NCBI GenBank assembly: GCA_947498505.1
Contig: CANMKG010000008.1
Span: forward strand, 1 to 64,000
Direction: 5' to 3'
Source of the DNA: an uncultured Maribacter sp.
Lineage (GTDB): Bacteria; Bacteroidota; Bacteroidia; Flavobacteriales; Flavobacteriaceae
DNA length: 64,000 bases
The position numbers and the translations under genes are program-made. Below the pieces are notes generated by a model. The model saw only the letters and a list, made by a program, of their open reading frames with translations. It was not told the DNA's origin and did not search any database. Shown here one piece after another: positions 47,288-55,761 of this stretch (position 1 is the first letter of the stretch; every line of letters begins with the position of its first letter).

Positions 47288-49783
47288 ATGGCCAAGAATT
47301 TAGTAATTGTAGAGTCGCCTGCCAAGGCAAAAACCATAGAGAAGTTTTTAGGAAAAGAGTTTAAAGTAGAGTCCAGTTTTGGACATATAGCAGATTTACC
47401 TTCAAAAGAATTAGGTGTTGATGTTGACAATGATTTTACACCTAAGTACATTGTTGATAAGGAAAAGAAAGCTCTTGTTAAAAAATTAAAAGATTTAGCT
47501 AAAAAAGCAGAAACTATATGGCTCGCAAGTGATGAGGATCGTGAGGGAGAAGCTATTTCATGGCATTTGGCGGAAACGTTAGGTTTAGAGAAAGACAAAA
47601 CAAAACGTATAGTTTTTAACTCTATTACTAAGTCTGCAATTCAAAAAGCCATTAAAACTCCAAGAGAAATAAATTATAACTTGGTAAATGCTCAGCAGGC
47701 TCGTAGGGTTTTGGATAGACTAGTGGGTTATCAGTTGTCTCCTGTGCTGTGGAAAAAAATAAAACCAGGATTATCAGCAGGTAGAGTGCAATCTGTTGCA
47801 GTGCGTTTAATTGTGGAACGTGAGCGAGATATTGACGCTTTTACTCCTGTTGCGTCTTATAAAATAGCTGCCGAATTTACAACAAAGGCCGGAAATGTTT
47901 TTTCTGCAAAATTGAATAAAAGTTTTGCTTCAAAAGAAGACGCTCAAGCTTTTTTAGAGAAAAATTTAACGGCGGATTTTTCTGTTGGTAATTTGGATAA
48001 AAAACCTGCGAAAAAATCACCATCCGCTCCTTTTACAACATCAACATTACAACAAGAGGCTTCTCGAAAATTATATTTTTCGGTAGGTAGAACCATGCAA
48101 GTTGCACAACGTTTGTATGAAGCTGGACTTATTACATATATGAGAACTGATAGTGTTAACCTTTCTAGTGAAGCAATTAATGCAGCAAAGGATGCTATTG
48201 TAGAAAACTATGGTGAAAAGTATAGTAATGTTAGAAACTTTACAGGTAAATCTAAAGGGGCTCAAGAAGCTCACGAAGCTATTAGGCCTACCGATATGTC
48301 GCGTCAGGCCCCATCATTAGAAAGAGATCAGGCAAAATTATACGAACTTATTTGGAAAAGAACAATTGCTTCACAAATGAGTGATGCGCAATTAGAACGT
48401 ACCAATGTTAAAATTAAAGCATCTACGCACAATGAAGAATTTTCTGCGAATGGAGAGGTAATTAAGTTTGATGGTTTCCTTAAAGTTTACATGGAAGGTA
48501 TTGATGAAGAAGATAAAGTAGAAGAACAAGAAGGTATGCTTCCAGCTATGCAAGTGGGTGAGATGCTGCTAAATAAATATATTACAGCTACAGAAAGGTT
48601 TACAAGACCACCCTATAGATTTACTGAGGCTTCTTTGGTTAAAAAATTGGAAGAACTGGGAATTGGAAGACCATCTACATATGCACCAACAATTTCTACT
48701 ATTTTGAATAGGGGGTATGTAGAAAAAGGTACTGTTGAAGGTACAGAGAGAAAGTATGTTCAGTTGCTAATGGAAGCTGGTTCTGTTAAAGAAAAAGGCC
48801 TTACCGAAACCGTTGGTTCTGATAAAGGTAAAATGGTGCCTACAGATATTGGAATGATTGTAAATGATTTTCTTGTAACTAATTTTTCAAAAATATTAGA
48901 CTATAATTTTACTGCAAAAGTAGAAGAGGATTTTGATGAAATAGCTTCTGGAGAGGAAGATTGGAAGAAAATAATGAAAGATTTTTATCAAGATTTTCAT
49001 CCAACAGTAGAAGATGTTGAAGCCAACGCTGATCGTGCTAGCGGAGAAAGAGTGTTAGGTAAAGATCCTAAGTCTGGTCGCCAAGTATCTGTTCGTTTAG
49101 GAAGGTTTGGACCAATGGTTCAAATAGGTACAGTAGAAGAAGAAGAAAAACCTTTGTTTGCAAGTTTGCTGCCAGAACATTCTTTAAATACTATTACGTT
49201 TGAAGAAGCTATGGAACTGTTTAAGCTTCCAAGAAATTTAGGAGTTTTTGAGGGAGAAGAGATTTTAGCAAACGTTGGTAGATTTGGACCTTATGTGAAA
49301 TTTGGAAGTAAGTTTGTTTCATTGGCCGCTGGAGAAAGTGCTATGGATGTTACTCTAGAAAGGGCAATAGAGTTAATAAAAGAAAAACAAAAAGCTGACG
49401 CTCCCATTGCAGCATATGAAGGTAAAGATGTTGTTAAAGGAGTTGGGCGTTTTGGACCATTTATTAAATGGGATGGAATGTTTATTAATGTATCTAAAAA
49501 GTACGATTTTGATAACCTTACTCAAGAGAACATAGAGGAGTTAATCGAAATTAAGAAACAAAAGGAAATAGACAAGGTTGTTCAAAATTGGGAGGAAGAA
49601 GGTATTCGAATTGAAAAGGCAAGGTGGGGAAGACACAATATTATAAAAGGGAAAATAAAAGTAGAATTAGCAAAAACAGTTGACGCTGCAAAAATGACTC
49701 TTAAAGAGGCCGCCGAATTAATTGAGAAAAAAACACCTAAGAAAAAAACAAAAGCTAAAGCTAAACCCAAAGCGAAAAAATAA
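47288..49783 (+). CDS. topA: DNA topoisomerase I
   Basis: TopA relaxes negative supercoils through a transient 5'-phosphotyrosine bond. The 831-residue protein has the N-terminal Toprim domain (VIVESPAKAKTI, DEDREGEAISWHL), the central gate with catalytic Tyr284 in GLITYMRTDS, and three C-terminal repeat domains (RFGPMVQIG, RFGPYVKFG, RFGPFIKW) in place of Cys4 zinc fingers, as is usual for Bacteroidota. The last 20 residues are a Lys-rich tail (KKKTKAKAKPKAKK) that probably binds DNA. The stop codon is 2 nt before the ureohydrolase-like gene, so the two are co-transcribed. Confidence 0.98.
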   Translation: MAKNLVIVESPAKAKTIEKFLGKEFKVESSFGHIADLPSKELGVDVDNDFTPKYIVDKEKKALVKKLKDLAKKAETIWLASDEDREGEAISWHLAETLGLEKDKTKRIVFNSITKSAIQKAIKTPREINYNLVNAQQARRVLDRLVGYQLSPVLWKKIKPGLSAGRVQSVAVRLIVERERDIDAFTPVASYKIAAEFTTKAGNVFSAKLNKSFASKEDAQAFLEKNLTADFSVGNLDKKPAKKSPSAPFTTSTLQQEASRKLYFSVGRTMQVAQRLYEAGLITYMRTDSVNLSSEAINAAKDAIVENYGEKYSNVRNFTGKSKGAQEAHEAIRPTDMSRQAPSLERDQAKLYELIWKRTIASQMSDAQLERTNVKIKASTHNEEFSANGEVIKFDGFLKVYMEGIDEEDKVEEQEGMLPAMQVGEMLLNKYITATERFTRPPYRFTEASLVKKLEELGIGRPSTYAPTISTILNRGYVEKGTVEGTERKYVQLLMEAGSVKEKGLTETVGSDKGKMVPTDIGMIVNDFLVTNFSKILDYNFTAKVEEDFDEIASGEEDWKKIMKDFYQDFHPTVEDVEANADRASGERVLGKDPKSGRQVSVRLGRFGPMVQIGTVEEEEKPLFASLLPEHSLNTITFEEAMELFKLPRNLGVFEGEEILANVGRFGPYVKFGSKFVSLAAGESAMDVTLERAIELIKEKQKADAPIAAYEGKDVVKGVGRFGPFIKWDGMFINVSKKYDFDNLTQENIEELIEIKKQKEIDKVVQNWEEEGIRIEKARWGRHNIIKGKIKVELAKTVDAAKMTLKEAAELIEKKTPKKKTKAKAKPKAKK

Positions 49784-49785
49784 GA

Positions 49786-50943
49786 ATGGCATACGATTTT
49801 TTAGTACCCGTTGAAGATAAAGTAATGGCGCATTGCGAGTTGCTTCCTTCGCAGGCACTCGGAAAAAATATTTTTATTCATACAAAAAAGGATGGCTTAC
49901 CTGTTTTAGCCAATGCATCCGTAGCATTATTAGGAGTAAAAGAATCTCGTAATGCTTTCGAAAAAAAAATCGAAAAGTTAGATACCTCTTCACTTCGAAT
50001 AGAATTTTACAAATTACTCATGGGTAATTGGAATTCTACCATAATAGATATGGGTGATATTGAAGAGGGCGATACTGTAGAGGATACTTATTTTGTTGTA
50101 AAGCAAATTGTCGCAGGATTATTAGAGGAAAATATAATTCCAATTATTTTAGGAGCAACTCAAGATATAACGTATCCTACATATAGAGCTTTTGACGGTA
50201 TAAAAGATATGGTCAATTTGGTTGCGGTGGATAGTCGTTTCGATTTTGGCCTGGATGATGAGTTAATATCATCGCACTCTTACATGAGTAAAATAATTAC
50301 AGATAAACCTAATAACCTATTTAATTTTTCCAACATCGGGTATCAAAGTTATTTTAATGCTCAGGAGGAATTAGATTTAATGGACCGTCTTTTTTTTGAA
50401 TCCTATAGACTTGGTGAGGTTACTAGCGATATAGCCATAGTGGAGCCAATATTGCGAAATGCCAATATGGTAAGTTTGGATGCTAGAGCTATTCAAGCTA
50501 GTGAAATGGGTTATTCGAATAACTTTTCTCCAAACGGTTTTAACGGAAGAGAAATTTGTGCCATTGCGCGATACGCCGGAATAAGTGATACGTTAAACGT
50601 GTTTGGCATTTACGAAATGGAAAATTTAAATCAATCCTGTCAACTAATTGCACAAATAATTTGGTATTTTATTGAAGGTACAAATTATAGAATAAAGGAG
50701 TCACCTTTTGTTAATACAGATGATTTCACCAAGTATACCGTGCCTACGGATACAGAACAGCTTGTTTTTTACAAAAGTCAATTATCGCAAAGATGGTGGG
50801 TTGAAGCACCAATGATTTTATCTACACATACTAAACACAATTCCCCTGCGTTATTATCATGCACCGAAAAAGACTATTTTGATGCGTGTAATCAAAACAT
50901 TCCTGAACGGTGGTTTAAAGCCTATAAAAAAGGGTTTAACTAA
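49786..50943 (+). CDS. Ureohydrolase-fold (arginase/formimidoylglutamase-like) protein with degenerate metal site
   Basis: A 385-residue cytoplasmic protein with the arginase/agmatinase fold. The strands that carry the manganese site are recognisable, but their ligands are altered: the expected GGDHS is GATQD (123-127), DAHxD is DSRFD (149-153), and the SxDxD motif is SLDAR (230-234). Three of the six canonical ligands remain (Asp149, Asp153, Asp232); both His and one Asp are replaced by Gln, Arg and Arg. Annotation pipelines usually name it formimidoylglutamase, but I expect little or no ureohydrolase activity. It lies 2 nt after topA and 121 nt before gldK, so a link to type IX secretion is possible. 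Confidence 0.82.
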   Translation: MAYDFLVPVEDKVMAHCELLPSQALGKNIFIHTKKDGLPVLANASVALLGVKESRNAFEKKIEKLDTSSLRIEFYKLLMGNWNSTIIDMGDIEEGDTVEDTYFVVKQIVAGLLEENIIPIILGATQDITYPTYRAFDGIKDMVNLVAVDSRFDFGLDDELISSHSYMSKIITDKPNNLFNFSNIGYQSYFNAQEELDLMDRLFFESYRLGEVTSDIAIVEPILRNANMVSLDARAIQASEMGYSNNFSPNGFNGREICAIARYAGISDTLNVFGIYEMENLNQSCQLIAQIIWYFIEGTNYRIKESPFVNTDDFTKYTVPTDTEQLVFYKSQLSQRWWVEAPMILSTHTKHNSPALLSCTEKDYFDACNQNIPERWFKAYKKGFN

Positions 50944-51064
50944 AAAAAACTTTTTTTAAAAGGATTAAGCATTAGATACAATAATTTACTCAAAACATAG
51001 TTTTAGTGTGTAGAATGAATAATTGTGTTTAAAGTTTAAACCATAATCGAAATTTAACCTAAAT

Positions 51065-52429
51065 ATGAAGAAGCTATTGTTATCATCCATGGCGTTAGTG
51101 TTTTTACTCTCCAGTTGTGGATCAAAAACAAAAGGGGAACTAGTTGGAGCCCGCGGGAAAAAGTGGTATCCTGAAAAACCTTATGGCATGGAATTAATCC
51201 CTCGAGGATCATTTATCATGGGTAAGGCAGAGGAAGACCAAGCTAAGGTGCTTAACGCTCCTACAAAAACAGTTACTGTACGTTCTTTTTATATGGATGA
51301 TACCGAAATTACAAATAGCGAGTATCGTCAATTTGTAGAATGGGTAAAAGATTCCATTACAAGAACAAAATTAGCAATACTAGCCGATGAACTTGGTGTT
51401 GGTCCAGAAGATGGAGGTATTGGTGATTACGCATTTAAAGATGCAGACACTACCAAAGCTTCTATATATGACAAGTATATGTTAGACAATTATTCTGGTA
51501 TGGGAGAGACCGGATACGAGGGTAGAGCATTAAATAAAGATGCAGACTTAGTATGGGATACTTCTGATTATCCAGATGAGTATTATACTGAGGTTATGGA
51601 TTCGCTTTATATTCCTGAGCAAGAATCTTATAACGGACAAAGAACTATTGATGTTACCAAATTAAAATATAAATATTCTTGGATGGATATTGAAGCTGCC
51701 GCACGTGCCGCTAAAAAGGGGAACAGCCGTAGAAGCGATTTTATTCGTCATGAAGAATTGGAAATTTATCCAGATACTACAGTATGGATTCGTGATTTTG
51801 AGTATTCTTATAACGAACCTATGCATAACGATTATTTCTGGCATGATGCATATAGCGATTATCCAGTAGTTGGAGTTTCTTGGAAACAAGCAAAGGCTTT
51901 TTGTAACTGGAGAACTAAATTCAAAAACGATGATCAAAAGAGTCGCGGTAAGCAGTTTGTAAATCAGTTTAGATTACCAACTGAGGCGGAATGGGAATAT
52001 GCTGCTAGAGGTGGAATTGAAGGAGGAACGTACCCATGGGGTGGACCTTACGTAATAAGCGATACAGGATGCTTTATGGCAAACTTTAAACCACAACGTG
52101 GAGATTATGCAGCCGATCAAGCATTGTATACTGTAGAAGCAAAAGCTTACGAGCCTAACGATTATAATTTATATAACATGGCAGGTAACGTATCAGAGTG
52201 GACAAACTCTAGTTATGATCCTAATTCGTACGAATATGTTTCAACAATGAATCCAAATGGAGGAGATGGTAGTAACGAGAGAAAAGTTATTAGAGGAGGA
52301 TCATGGAAAGATGTTGCTTACTTCCTACAGGTAAGTACCAGAGATTATGAATATGCGGATTCAGTTAGGAGTTATATCGGCTTTAGAACCGTTCAAGATT
52401 ATCTAGGTGAAGAGGACTCAACACAATAA
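51065..52429 (+). CDS. gldK: Gliding motility / type IX secretion lipoprotein GldK
   Basis: GldK forms with GldN the ring attached to the outer membrane in the type IX secretion system. The 454-residue lipoprotein has lipobox LLSSC (Cys18) and a formylglycine-generating-enzyme-like (SUMF1) fold: GMELIPRGSFIMG, DDTEITNSEYRQFV, VSWKQAKAFCNWR, RLPTEAEWEYAARGG and MAGNVSEWT. A long insertion (about 100-235) rich in acidic and Tyr residues is typical of GldK. It begins the gldKLMN run; a weak -7-like TAATTGTG lies at 51020-51027. Confidence 0.97.
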   Translation: MKKLLLSSMALVFLLSSCGSKTKGELVGARGKKWYPEKPYGMELIPRGSFIMGKAEEDQAKVLNAPTKTVTVRSFYMDDTEITNSEYRQFVEWVKDSITRTKLAILADELGVGPEDGGIGDYAFKDADTTKASIYDKYMLDNYSGMGETGYEGRALNKDADLVWDTSDYPDEYYTEVMDSLYIPEQESYNGQRTIDVTKLKYKYSWMDIEAAARAAKKGNSRRSDFIRHEELEIYPDTTVWIRDFEYSYNEPMHNDYFWHDAYSDYPVVGVSWKQAKAFCNWRTKFKNDDQKSRGKQFVNQFRLPTEAEWEYAARGGIEGGTYPWGGPYVISDTGCFMANFKPQRGDYAADQALYTVEAKAYEPNDYNLYNMAGNVSEWTNSSYDPNSYEYVSTMNPNGGDGSNERKVIRGGSWKDVAYFLQVSTRDYEYADSVRSYIGFRTVQDYLGEEDSTQ

Positions 52430-52527: not shown

Positions 52528-53178
52528 ATGGCACAGTCAAAATCAACAAAGAAATTATTTAATATGGCCTACGGTCTTGGAGCCTCTGTAGTAATTATTG
52601 GAGCTCTATTTAAAATTCTTCACTGGGAATTAGGACCATTAAATGGAGGAGTTCTTTTAGCAATTGGTCTTATTACAGAAGCACTTATTTTTGCTATTAG
52701 TGCATTTGAGCCCGTAGATGACGAGTACGATTGGTCTTTAGTGTACCCAGAATTAGCAGGAGGAGCTTCTAACGGAAAATCTAACGAAGTTGCAGAAATG
52801 AAAGAAGCTGAGGCTTCATTATCTAAAAAATTAGATAACCTTTTACAGGAAGCTGGAATAGATGCTAACTTAATGGAAAGCTTAGGATCTAGTATCAAAA
52901 ACTTCGAAGGAGCTGCTAAAGGTATAGCGCCAACAGTAGACGCAATGGAATCTACTAAAAAGTATTCTGACGAAATGGTACATGCTGCCGCTCAAATGGA
53001 ATCTTTAAATAGCCTTTATAAAGTACAGTTGGAGAGTGCAAGTAAGCAAGCTTCTGTAAATGAAGAAGTAGTGCAAAATGCATCTGCTCTTAAAGAACAA
53101 ATGGCATCATTATCTACTAACCTTTCTTCATTGAATGGTGTTTATGGTGGAATGTTATCTGCAATGAGCAAAAACTAA
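52528..53178 (+). CDS. gldL: Gliding motility / type IX secretion motor protein GldL
   Basis: GldL is the inner-membrane pentamer that, with GldM, converts proton flow to rotation for gliding and secretion. The 216-residue protein has two helices (about 11-31 and 37-59) and a cytoplasmic coiled-coil region (about 90-215). The functional charges known from Flavobacterium johnsoniae GldL have equivalents here: Lys29 and His32 at the end of helix 1 (LFKILHW) and Glu51 in helix 2 (GLITEALIF). It lies 98 nt after gldK and 56 nt before gldM. Confidence 0.97.
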   Translation: MAQSKSTKKLFNMAYGLGASVVIIGALFKILHWELGPLNGGVLLAIGLITEALIFAISAFEPVDDEYDWSLVYPELAGGASNGKSNEVAEMKEAEASLSKKLDNLLQEAGIDANLMESLGSSIKNFEGAAKGIAPTVDAMESTKKYSDEMVHAAAQMESLNSLYKVQLESASKQASVNEEVVQNASALKEQMASLSTNLSSLNGVYGGMLSAMSKN

Positions 53179-53234: not shown

Positions 53235-54794
53235 ATGGCAGGAGGAAAACAATCACCACGTCAGAAGATGGTCAACCTTATGTATTTGATCTTCATCGCG
53301 ATGTTGGCCTTAAATATGAGTAAAGAAGTTTTAGCCGCTTTTGGTCTTATGAACGAAAAGATGGAAACTTCTAACGAAAAAACTACAGAAAGTAACTTAG
53401 CTTTCTTGGGTAGTTTAGAAACAAAAGCTTCTGAAGATACAAAGAAGTATGGTGAGCTTTACGAAAAAGCTCAAAAGATTAAGACTTTATCTCAAGATTA
53501 TTACGATTATTTAGAGGGTCTTAAAAAGGGTATGATGAAGGATGTTGAAGATCCTAAAGATTACGCTGTAATGGACAAGTCAAATTTCTTAGATCAAAAA
53601 TTCTTTCAGGGAGAAAACCTATCTAAAGATGGTAAGGAGTTCTTAAAGAGAATTAACGACTACAGAACGCAAGTAGCCGCTATGGCACCTGCAGCTGTTA
53701 AAGAAGCTGTTGAAGCTCGTTTTCAAACTGGAGACGCTAACGGTAAAGTAGAGAAAAGAGACGGGACTAAGCAAAATTGGCTTAACTATCACTACGAAGG
53801 TTTTCCATTAGTAGCTTCATTAACTAAGTTAACTGCTTTGCAGCAAGATATTAAAACAACTGAAGAAGACGCTTTAAAATCTATGTTAGCTGGTAACTTA
53901 ACTGATCAGGTATCTTTAAAAAACTTTGCTACTTCATTACAAGCTGCTAAATCAGCTTTCTATTCTGGAGATAAGTACGATGGTAAAATTATTATTAGTA
54001 AAACTGATAATTCATCAACTCCAGTAAGAGCAGAGTTAACTCTTGATGGTAGAAAATTAGCAGAAGGTAAAGACTACGTGTTAGAAGCAGGTGGTGTTAA
54101 AATGTTAATTGGTGCTGGTAATCCAGGTGACCATACAATAGCAGGTCAGATTTTCTTTAAGCAAGATGGTGAAGAAATTCCTGTTGAGGTTAAAAATTCT
54201 TTCGCTACAATATCTAAGCCTAATGCTGCATTAATTGCTGCAGATAAAATGAATGTTGTTTATCGTGGCGTAGCTAACCCAATGTCTATATCTATACCAG
54301 GTATACCAAATAATAAGGTTAGTGCTTCTGCACCAGGACTTAAAAAGGTGAGTGGAAGTAAGTATGTAATGAACCCAGGAAAAGGAAGAACAGTAAAAAT
54401 TATGGCTTCTGGTACTTTACCTGACGGTCAACGTATTTCTACACCGGCAACATTTAGAATTAAGGATATTCCAAGACCATCTGGTTCTATTAGAGGAGAA
54501 TCTGGAAGTGCTAAAATGCCAAGAAAGAACTTAGAGATTGCTACTGTAGGAGCATTGTTAGAAGACTTTGATTTTGACCTTAACCTTAAAGTAGGTGGAT
54601 TTAAATTTAAAGTTCCTGGACAACCAACAGTTAGTGTAAGAGGAAGTAGATTAGACGCAAGAGCTAAGTCTGCCCTTAAAAGAGCTAAAAGAGGTGATGC
54701 TGTTCAGATATTTGATATCAACGCTTACATCACAAATAACAAAGGTTATAAACTTAAGAAGGTATCTCCTGTAGTTGTGGAGATAACAAATTAA
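53235..54794 (+). CDS. gldM: Gliding motility / type IX secretion motor protein GldM
   Basis: GldM has one inner-membrane helix in the GldL pentamer and a long periplasmic shaft that reaches the GldKN ring. The 519-residue protein starts with a short basic segment, then the helix (about 13-33, VNLMYLIFIAMLALNM), a helical first domain (about 35-225) and beta-rich Ig-like domains (about 230-519) including KMLIGAGNPGDHTIAGQIFF and MSISIPGIPNNKVSA. Order and length match known GldM proteins. A small hairpin lies between it and gldN. Confidence 0.97.
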   Translation: MAGGKQSPRQKMVNLMYLIFIAMLALNMSKEVLAAFGLMNEKMETSNEKTTESNLAFLGSLETKASEDTKKYGELYEKAQKIKTLSQDYYDYLEGLKKGMMKDVEDPKDYAVMDKSNFLDQKFFQGENLSKDGKEFLKRINDYRTQVAAMAPAAVKEAVEARFQTGDANGKVEKRDGTKQNWLNYHYEGFPLVASLTKLTALQQDIKTTEEDALKSMLAGNLTDQVSLKNFATSLQAAKSAFYSGDKYDGKIIISKTDNSSTPVRAELTLDGRKLAEGKDYVLEAGGVKMLIGAGNPGDHTIAGQIFFKQDGEEIPVEVKNSFATISKPNAALIAADKMNVVYRGVANPMSISIPGIPNNKVSASAPGLKKVSGSKYVMNPGKGRTVKIMASGTLPDGQRISTPATFRIKDIPRPSGSIRGESGSAKMPRKNLEIATVGALLEDFDFDLNLKVGGFKFKVPGQPTVSVRGSRLDARAKSALKRAKRGDAVQIFDINAYITNNKGYKLKKVSPVVVEITN

Positions 54795-54846: not shown

Positions 54847-55761
54847 ATGATTAAAAAAATGAATTGGAAAAATGTTTTAGTAATCGGAGCAATAACATTG
54901 TTACCAGCATCAATGATGGCACAGGCAAACATATTAAATGCTAAAAAGCCAGATGATATTGGAAAAAGAACAGAAGCTCAAAAAGAGCTAGATAATGATG
55001 CTCCATTAAAATACGCTTATGTTGATGACAGAGATATTCTTTGGTCAAAAACAGTATGGGAAACTATAGATTTAGATGAGCGTGTAAACTTTCCGTTATA
55101 CTATCCTACAGATACTATTGATATAGGAGCAGATAGAAGATCGTTATATGATGTTTTAATCAAAAACATTAAAAGCGGAAAACTGGATGATGTTTATGTA
55201 GATTCTTATTTTACTGAAAAAAGAAAGTTCAGTGATTTAGCGGCTACCTTGCAAAAGGTAGATACCACAGATTATGGTTTTGAGCAATTAAATGCTGGTG
55301 AAGAAATTTCAGCAGAATATATTAATCAAAGAGATTTAACCGCTGCTGATATTGAAGAGTACCGTATAAAAGGTATATGGTATTTTGATAAACGTCAAGG
55401 AGAACTTAAGTACCGATTATTAGGTATTGCACCAGTTGCACCAGATGTTAACTTTATTGATGATGAGTCTATGGACCCTTCAGATGCTAAAGTTGAGTTG
55501 TTTTGGGTATGGTATCCTTCGGCGAGACAAATATTACATGAAGCAAAGGTGTTTAATCAACGTAATTCGGCACAACCCATATCTTTTGATATGTTGTTAA
55601 ACGCAAGAAGATTTAACGGTGTAATTTATCGAGAAGATAATGTTCACGGAGACCGTAAGGTTAATGATTATATTGCGGACAATGCATTGTTTCAATTATT
55701 GGAAGCCAAACGTATAAAAGAAGTTATCCGAGACAGGGAACAAGATATGTGGGCTTACTAG
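54847..55761 (+). CDS. gldN: Gliding motility / type IX secretion protein GldN
   Basis: GldN is the periplasmic partner of GldK in the outer-membrane-associated ring. The 304-residue protein has a signal peptide (about 1-26, ending MMAQA) and the family's conserved core: DDRDILWSKTVWETIDLDERVNFPLYYP, GIWYFDKRQGELKYRLLGIAPVAPD and ELFWVWYPSARQILHEAKVFN. A methionine at residue 5 is an alternative start. A perfect terminator follows, so gldKLMN ends here and no gldO duplicate is present. Confidence 0.97.
   Translation: MIKKMNWKNVLVIGAITLLPASMMAQANILNAKKPDDIGKRTEAQKELDNDAPLKYAYVDDRDILWSKTVWETIDLDERVNFPLYYPTDTIDIGADRRSLYDVLIKNIKSGKLDDVYVDSYFTEKRKFSDLAATLQKVDTTDYGFEQLNAGEEISAEYINQRDLTAADIEEYRIKGIWYFDKRQGELKYRLLGIAPVAPDVNFIDDESMDPSDAKVELFWVWYPSARQILHEAKVFNQRNSAQPISFDMLLNARRFNGVIYREDNVHGDRKVNDYIADNALFQLLEAKRIKEVIRDREQDMWAY

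Follow-up and report, generated by a model that had tools for sequence, protein, structure and literature searches.

The stretch of DNA analysed here (the window) comprises 64,000 nucleotides of a contig from an uncultured Maribacter sp. and carries a gene for a 385-aa protein between topA and gldKLMN (Table 1). The tight join to topA and the place just upstream of gldKLMN agree with what an earlier note on this DNA had described. The protein matches the Pfam Arginase family PF00491 with 32.1 bits (cut-off 22, E 1.1e-7), and its best NCBIfam match is hutG (TIGR01227), but with only 34.5 bits against a cut-off of 229.15. An AlphaFold2 model, for which 75 orthologues served as input, reached a pLDDT of 90.1 and a pTM of 0.91, and a Foldseek search with this model returned ureohydrolases in 50 out of 50 cases among the matches listed, with metformin hydrolase subunits on top. 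The top match was 8ryi_C, a metformin hydrolase listed as subunit B (E 3.5e-15), and the matches also included the Trypanosoma cruzi formiminoglutamase (E 1.9e-14, TMt 0.77; 0.75 to 0.80 over its entries) and Bacillus subtilis HutG (TMt up to 0.76). The PF00491 score, the predicted model and the Foldseek matches together place the protein in the ureohydrolase fold superfamily (arginase/agmatinase/HutG), and the earlier statement that the fold elements are kept holds. No signal peptide is apparent by eye at its N-terminus. The dN/dS ratio between the window gene and its nearest counterpart (L032) is 0.032, a value that rests on this nearest pair as the majority of the remaining pairs are saturated; for the same pair it is 0.013 for topA and 0.000 to 0.080 across the gld genes. 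The open reading frame is therefore no chance ORF, and the gene is under strong purifying selection.

Table 1. Features of the topA-gldKLMN region in the window (residue numbers are those of the 385-aa protein; ligand positions in rat arginase numbering)
Feature	Coordinates	Strand	Remarks
topA	47288..49783	+	ends 2 nt upstream of the gene; name from the first reading and synteny
Pseudo-ureohydrolase gene, HutG lineage	49786..50943	+	385 aa; PF00491, AlphaFold2 model, Foldseek
Motif 1 GATQD, residues 123-127	50152..50166	+	H101 position is Gln126
Motif 2 DSRFD, residues 149-153	50230..50244	+	D124 and D128 kept; H126 position is Arg151
Family-specific E220-P-x-x-R224	50443..50457	+	E220 and R224 in 112/112; not conserved in HutG
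Motif 3 SLDAR, residues 230-234	50473..50487	+	D232 kept; D234 position is Arg234
Lineage-specific C-terminal domain, residues 302-385 (~84 residues)	50689..50940	+	W337 and C359 in 112/112
Conserved non-coding block, gene-gldK gap	50978..51006	.	conserved in 75 aligned loci
gldK	51065..52429	+	TIGR03525, 605 bits, above NCBIfam cut-off; starts 121 nt downstream of the gene
gldL	52528..53178	+	TIGR03513, above NCBIfam cut-off
gldM	53235..54794	+	TIGR03517, above NCBIfam cut-off
gldN	54847..55761	+	TIGR03523, above NCBIfam cut-off

The three metal-site motifs read exactly as first claimed. Ligand positions are given in what we take to be rat arginase numbering, an assignment that agrees with the alignment to canonical rows; on this assignment H126 and D234 are presumably the ligands of the second metal and H101 a ligand of the first, and the Glu277 position is assumed to be a functional position of canonical ureohydrolases. 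Three of the six metal ligands are gone from the window protein (H101→Q, H126→R and D234→R), so that the earlier count of two lost histidines and one lost aspartate is borne out and comprises both second-metal ligands plus H101 of the first metal, while the other three ligands are intact, D124 as Asp149, D128 as Asp153 and D232 as Asp232. The same picture emerges from 112 distinct orthologues in 51 families, a count that leaves aside the poorly aligning members of family f5, which were treated separately: four canonical ligands are present in 25, three in 62, two in 8 and one in 17, and none has five or six. The 41 canonical relatives carry six (35 proteins) or five (6), and each of 21 retrieved matches from outside the class (L167-L187) is canonical, with 5 or 6 ligands. 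Orthologues with intact motifs, which would have contradicted the earlier reading, were thus not found among the 112.

Position by position, H126 survives in 2/112 orthologues, with Lys or Arg in its place in 59, and D234 in 7/112, all of them from family f2; the two never occur together. His is kept at the H101 position in 25 and replaced by Gln in 68, of the aspartates, D124 is retained in 97, D128 in 90 and D232 in 98, and E277 is kept in 61 and changed in 51. As H101 is Asn in 5 of the 41 canonical relatives, a change at this position by itself is no proof of inactivity, and the case rests on the loss of H126 and D234. Family f2 (L154-L160) has a single one of the six ligand letters left (D234); the site is further eroded there, and the branch of L154 is very long (2.76). 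Residues that are conserved in HutG are lost from the family beyond the ligands themselves, namely the R, N, G and R of the substrate loop beside window residues 58-60 and N147, H151 and R155 around motif 2.

Within the window's own family we collected 124 loci encoding 119 distinct proteins, the repeats being one genome reached by two routes and four loci that occur twice. Q126 is found in 118 of the distinct proteins, R or K151 in 117, D149 in 119, D153 in 117 and D232 in 119. R234 is present in 79 of the 81 sequences made up of the window and the 80 named loci of Maribacter and its kin, versus 7 of the family's other 38 proteins. The conservation that the earlier note had proposed to check thus stands for Gln126 and, with Lys allowed, for Arg151, and fails for Arg234, which is ruled out as a conserved functional residue.

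To place the protein among its relatives we used two trees. In a maximum-likelihood tree computed without the ligand columns, and with 14 near-duplicate rows removed, the family is set off from all other rows by a single branch (SH-aLRT 100), and family and HutG together stand apart from agmatinases and arginases (SH-aLRT 98). A second tree of 74 rows (60 family members and 14 of the 24 HutG rows), in which the bootstrap had not fully settled and some deep nodes are weak, splits the family from HutG at 100/100. The window's genome holds an intact HutG elsewhere (282.7 bits versus a cut-off of 229; motifs GGGHD, DAHFD and TIDLD), which lies in a hutH-hutI-hutU-hutG arrangement; annotated HutG neighbourhoods in other loci read hutU-hutI-hutG (L169) and hutI with hutG (L274). 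The pseudo-ureohydrolase gene has no hut neighbours in the window and adjoins topA and gldK. Because the intact HutG sits in the hut operon, the formimidoylglutamase job is done by another gene here. Judged by sequence, the name formimidoylglutamase that the first reading had mentioned and doubted is wrong for this protein, which scores far below the profile cut-off, retains three of six ligands and coexists with a separate HutG.

The strictest conservation in the alignment lies in the C-terminal half rather than at the substituted ligand residues, a feature missed by the first reading. Six residues (Q187, E220, R224, W293, W337 and C359) are invariant in 112/112 aligned orthologues, and of these HutG normally shares only Q187. 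Throughout the aligned family, the full binuclear ligand set has been lost while new C-terminal residues have become invariant. The region of the C-terminal domain is gapped in 24/24 HutG rows, and a profile of this domain matches 57 of 247 genomes of the phylum, with one copy each; these are 57/61 genomes of the class and 0/186 others, among the misses listed and taken as sorted by kinship, and the class genomes lacking a match are, among the misses listed, G162, G190, G230 and G238. Neither Pfam (17 scattered weak families, each in ≤5/96 members) nor the PDB sequences (best E 0.21) yielded a convincing relative of the domain. In the AlphaFold2 model it consists of strands and two helices, strand 337-341 carrying W337-W338 and strand 355-359 carrying C359; upstream of it, E220 and R224 fall in helix 216-224 and W293 in helix 282-299. 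In 10 very divergent members that have the C-terminal half, W293 is present in 10, E220 in 9, R224 in 7 and C359 in 7, so that C359 and R224 are missing from some of the most divergent members.

Two f5 orthologues from one genus (L163, 278 aa; L164, 277 aa) lack the motif 1 residues and have Thr or Lys at D124, with Asp still aligned at D128 and D232, and they keep EPxxR, W293, F328, WW, C359 and DY. As these proteins retain the C-terminal half without motif 1, the alignment suggests that the present function is located outside the old active site.

A search with the family profile matched 188 of 197 class genomes in a drawn sample, sorted into families that are coded groups; the profile could in principle also catch HutG, and seven of the weakest matches were read back (L294-L296 and L298-L301). 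Six of these seven reach the C-terminal half and keep most signature residues, with Val in place of C359 in two f99 members, and the remaining piece, from f66, covers the N-terminal half only. The misses are f11 (5/5), f12 (1), f73 (1), f99 (1/3) and a single genome of 0.5 Mb; in f10, which lies outside the 197-genome sample, the gene is absent in 3/3. This breadth, together with the strong selection, confirms that the protein is retained. In one genome (G439:C1:921214-922344) the gene is broken by stops and frame changes, perhaps through an assembly error, as SprA, too, is fragmented into four pieces in this genome.

The gene order around the window gene is widely shared. Throughout the window's family gldK lies downstream on the same strand (124/124 loci, 119 distinct proteins), and topA was found upstream in 119 loci by automatic count; of the remaining five loci, four have their first base within the gene, and L106 does have topA, overlapped by an over-long ORF call. 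The median gap is 21 nt to topA (119 loci, some overlapping) versus 123 nt to gldK (124 loci), these locus-based counts and medians including the repeats mentioned above. The order topA, gene, PorP/SprF, gldK, gldL, gldM and gldN recurs in many other families, and in L209 two tandem PorP/SprF genes lie between the pseudoenzyme gene and gldK. By majority, 27 of the 51 families have topA and gld, 2 gld only, 3 topA only and 19 neither, so that the gld cluster adjoins the gene in 29/51 and the synteny with gldK extends beyond the window's family. Family f6 is mixed (gld neighbour in 3/5 loci), and topA adjacency without gld occurs in f71, f80, f94 and 2/8 f2 loci. Outside the 51-family count, the pseudoenzyme gene in 3/5 f5 loci faces, in convergent orientation, gldK and a gene encoding 431-436 aa, which looked MurF-like by eye in the single copy inspected; the shortened f5 orthologues (L163:7996-8829 and L164:7454-8284) are convergent with the MurF-like gene (by eye) and gldK.

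In the second tree all 32 rows with a gld neighbour fall within one 39-row branch (99/90), and the 21 orthologues that branch more basally are without a gld neighbour and have already lost the second-metal ligands, except for an Asp at D234 in a single f2 row. On this tree the gld neighbourhood is confined to a single branch, later than the loss of the metal site. A different neighbour, a divergently transcribed HpnA-like SDR gene upstream, is found in nine families, among them the basal f100 and f108, at position -1 in eight and -3 in f4. Such extended SDR genes (HpnA-like, below cut-off) are seen in lineages without the gld neighbourhood, for example L123, L125 and L144, and a homologue with 35% identity lies elsewhere in the window's genome (G000:C3:353320-354306). 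Between the gene and gldK, the conserved non-coding block may serve as a promoter or regulatory element of gldK. We take TAnnTTTG to be the Bacteroidota-type promoter motif; it was found in 23/124 gene-gldK gaps versus 16 expected, which is no convincing enrichment, and the two-part promoter form occurred once in these gaps against 1.4 expected. A TAnnTTTG promoter before gldK was consequently dropped as a candidate; the conserved block, in which no good match to this motif occurs, is present all the same.

The position of the gene raises the question of a role in type IX secretion (T9SS), which the earlier note had drawn from position. If the protein assisted or regulated the secretion/gliding apparatus from the cytoplasm, by way of the GldKLMN products, then a conserved gldKLMN neighbourhood would be expected, and this is what the majority of families and every locus of the window's own family display. 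Co-occurrence in the 197 genomes points the same way, with SprA and the gene both present in 186, SprA only in 5, the gene only in 2 and neither in 4 (Fisher p 3e-5, ignoring kinship). This co-occurrence is, however, not obligate: G346 (99% complete) and G440 (95%) keep the gene without a SprA or GldL match, five SprA-positive genomes lack it (G407, G337, G494, G373 and G542), as does f10, in which SprA is present. Two further genomes (G002 and G269) keep the gene and have GldL matches and no SprA match, possibly a partial T9SS loss. Partial rate covariation, measured over 48 loci with all six genes and with most named Maribacter-side loci excluded to thin near-copies, links the gene to GldM (0.20, p 0.037), but it is about zero for GldK (-0.07) and GldL (-0.10) and only 0.16 (p 0.072) for GldN, whereas known pairs score higher (GldK-GldN 0.52, GldL-GldM 0.42). 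Along with the restriction of gld neighbours to one branch, these values weaken a T9SS function read from synteny alone, and the nine families with a conserved SDR neighbour also speak against it. The secretion role that the earlier note had suggested is therefore unsupported beyond position; it is possible on positional grounds, and we consider the accessory or regulator reading unlikely. In the open-licence PMC literature, judged by the listings, no paper seemed relevant to gldK with formimidoylglutamase, arginase or topA, to arginase with gliding or type IX secretion, to formimidoylglutamase with gliding, or to the locus tag Fjoh_1852.

A functional tie to topA, with an operon probably shared, would agree with the shorter gap on that side, with the persistence of topA where gld is missing, and with the fact that topA gives the gene's highest partial rate correlation (0.29, p 0.001). 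But topA also correlates with gldL (0.26) and gldM (0.30), so the covariation is not specific, and the topA neighbourhood is missing in more basal branches and in 19/51 families by majority, which makes such a tie very unlikely. Continued enzyme activity, with a single metal bound in the first half-site (H101/Q, D124, D128 and D232) or by a metal-free mechanism, would fit the many retained aspartates and the lineages that have all four first-metal ligands; an Asn in place of H101 may alone be compatible with activity, given the canonical relatives with Asn and a T. cruzi formiminoglutamase structure whose title names an N114H variant. Against this, H126 and D234 are never both present, the Glu277 position is altered in 51/112, f2 is down to one ligand and two f5 members have no motif 1 residues, and we regard continued catalysis as quite improbable. 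Finally, the protein could pair as a dead subunit with an active ureohydrolase, as MetCb does with MetCa, which would suit its best Foldseek match and the intact-looking HutG in the window's genome. No canonical ureohydrolase is adjacent in the window, though, and six profile-matching genomes (G099, G138, G214, G429, G489 and G507) show one weak PF00491 match each, consistent with the pseudoenzyme gene itself (coordinates checked for part of them). A canonical partner thus seems dispensable, an obligate heteromer with a canonical ureohydrolase is unlikely, and the partner-subunit reading in general is extremely so.

The explanation we favour, and hold to be probable, is a non-catalytic ureohydrolase-fold protein that shares ancestry with HutG and was neofunctionalised early in the class. 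A HutG-related protein would at that stage have lost its binuclear ligand set and substrate loop, and the barrel would have remained as a structural platform, a second-metal ligand being replaced by Lys or Arg in many members. The C-terminal module (the E220/R224 helix, W293, W337-W338, C359 and D363-Y364) would contact a putative partner, with E220/R224, W293, W337-W338 and C359 packed together as the working surface, and the protein would act in the cytoplasm as a binding or scaffold protein. The old pocket may still hold a ligand or a single metal, since the three aspartates and E277 stay conserved and f5 has Asp at D128 and D232. The earlier proposal of a retained pseudoenzyme with a binding or regulatory role accordingly stands as far as the degraded metal site and the strong selection go, and the binding role itself we infer. 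A bolder version, in which a class-wide cytoplasmic scaffold or regulator was later recruited to topA-gldKLMN and today tunes T9SS assembly or the GldLM motor from the cytoplasm, as a predicted non-enzymatic member of this gene neighbourhood, appears quite unlikely.

These observations matter in that a gene which almost an entire bacterial class carries could end up with the wrong name, formimidoylglutamase. In some lineages its old active site has decayed, while the C-terminal domain, which has no recognised family, stays under strict conservation. This makes it a conserved gene that is directly testable and, beside a T9SS locus of gliding bacteria, a clear candidate in bacteria for the neofunctionalisation of an enzyme into a scaffold.

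Among known systems, HutG (TIGR01227) shares the fold and is the closest sequence lineage, but the window protein lacks H126, D234 and the R-N-G-R loop, remains far below the HutG cut-off and has an added C-terminal domain, with the true HutG encoded elsewhere in the same genome. With the fold taken from the predicted model and the ligands from the alignment, it fits the ureohydrolase-fold pseudoenzymes TbARG and MetCb, in which the fold is retained and the binuclear ligand set is gone. The Trypanosoma brucei arginase-like protein (TbARG), which Hai et al. are said to have described in 2015, reportedly has no Mn and a lost binuclear cluster in an arginase fold, like the window protein, but belongs to the eukaryotic arginase lineage, and we know of no extra domain or class-wide conservation for it. 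The metformin hydrolase report presents MetCb as a metal-free subunit with five of six ligands changed that is needed for MetCa activity, encoded by an adjacent gene pair (PMC11271267). A binding role for a dead ureohydrolase therefore has a precedent, because MetCb is metal-free yet required by MetCa (PMC11271267). The window protein resembles MetCb, its best structural match, in being a ureohydrolase-fold pseudoenzyme, MetCb being metal-free and a binding partner (PMC11271267); unlike MetCb, whose gene adjoins metCa, it seemingly needs no canonical partner in six genomes, and it carries a C-terminal domain that has no relative in Pfam or the PDB sequences.
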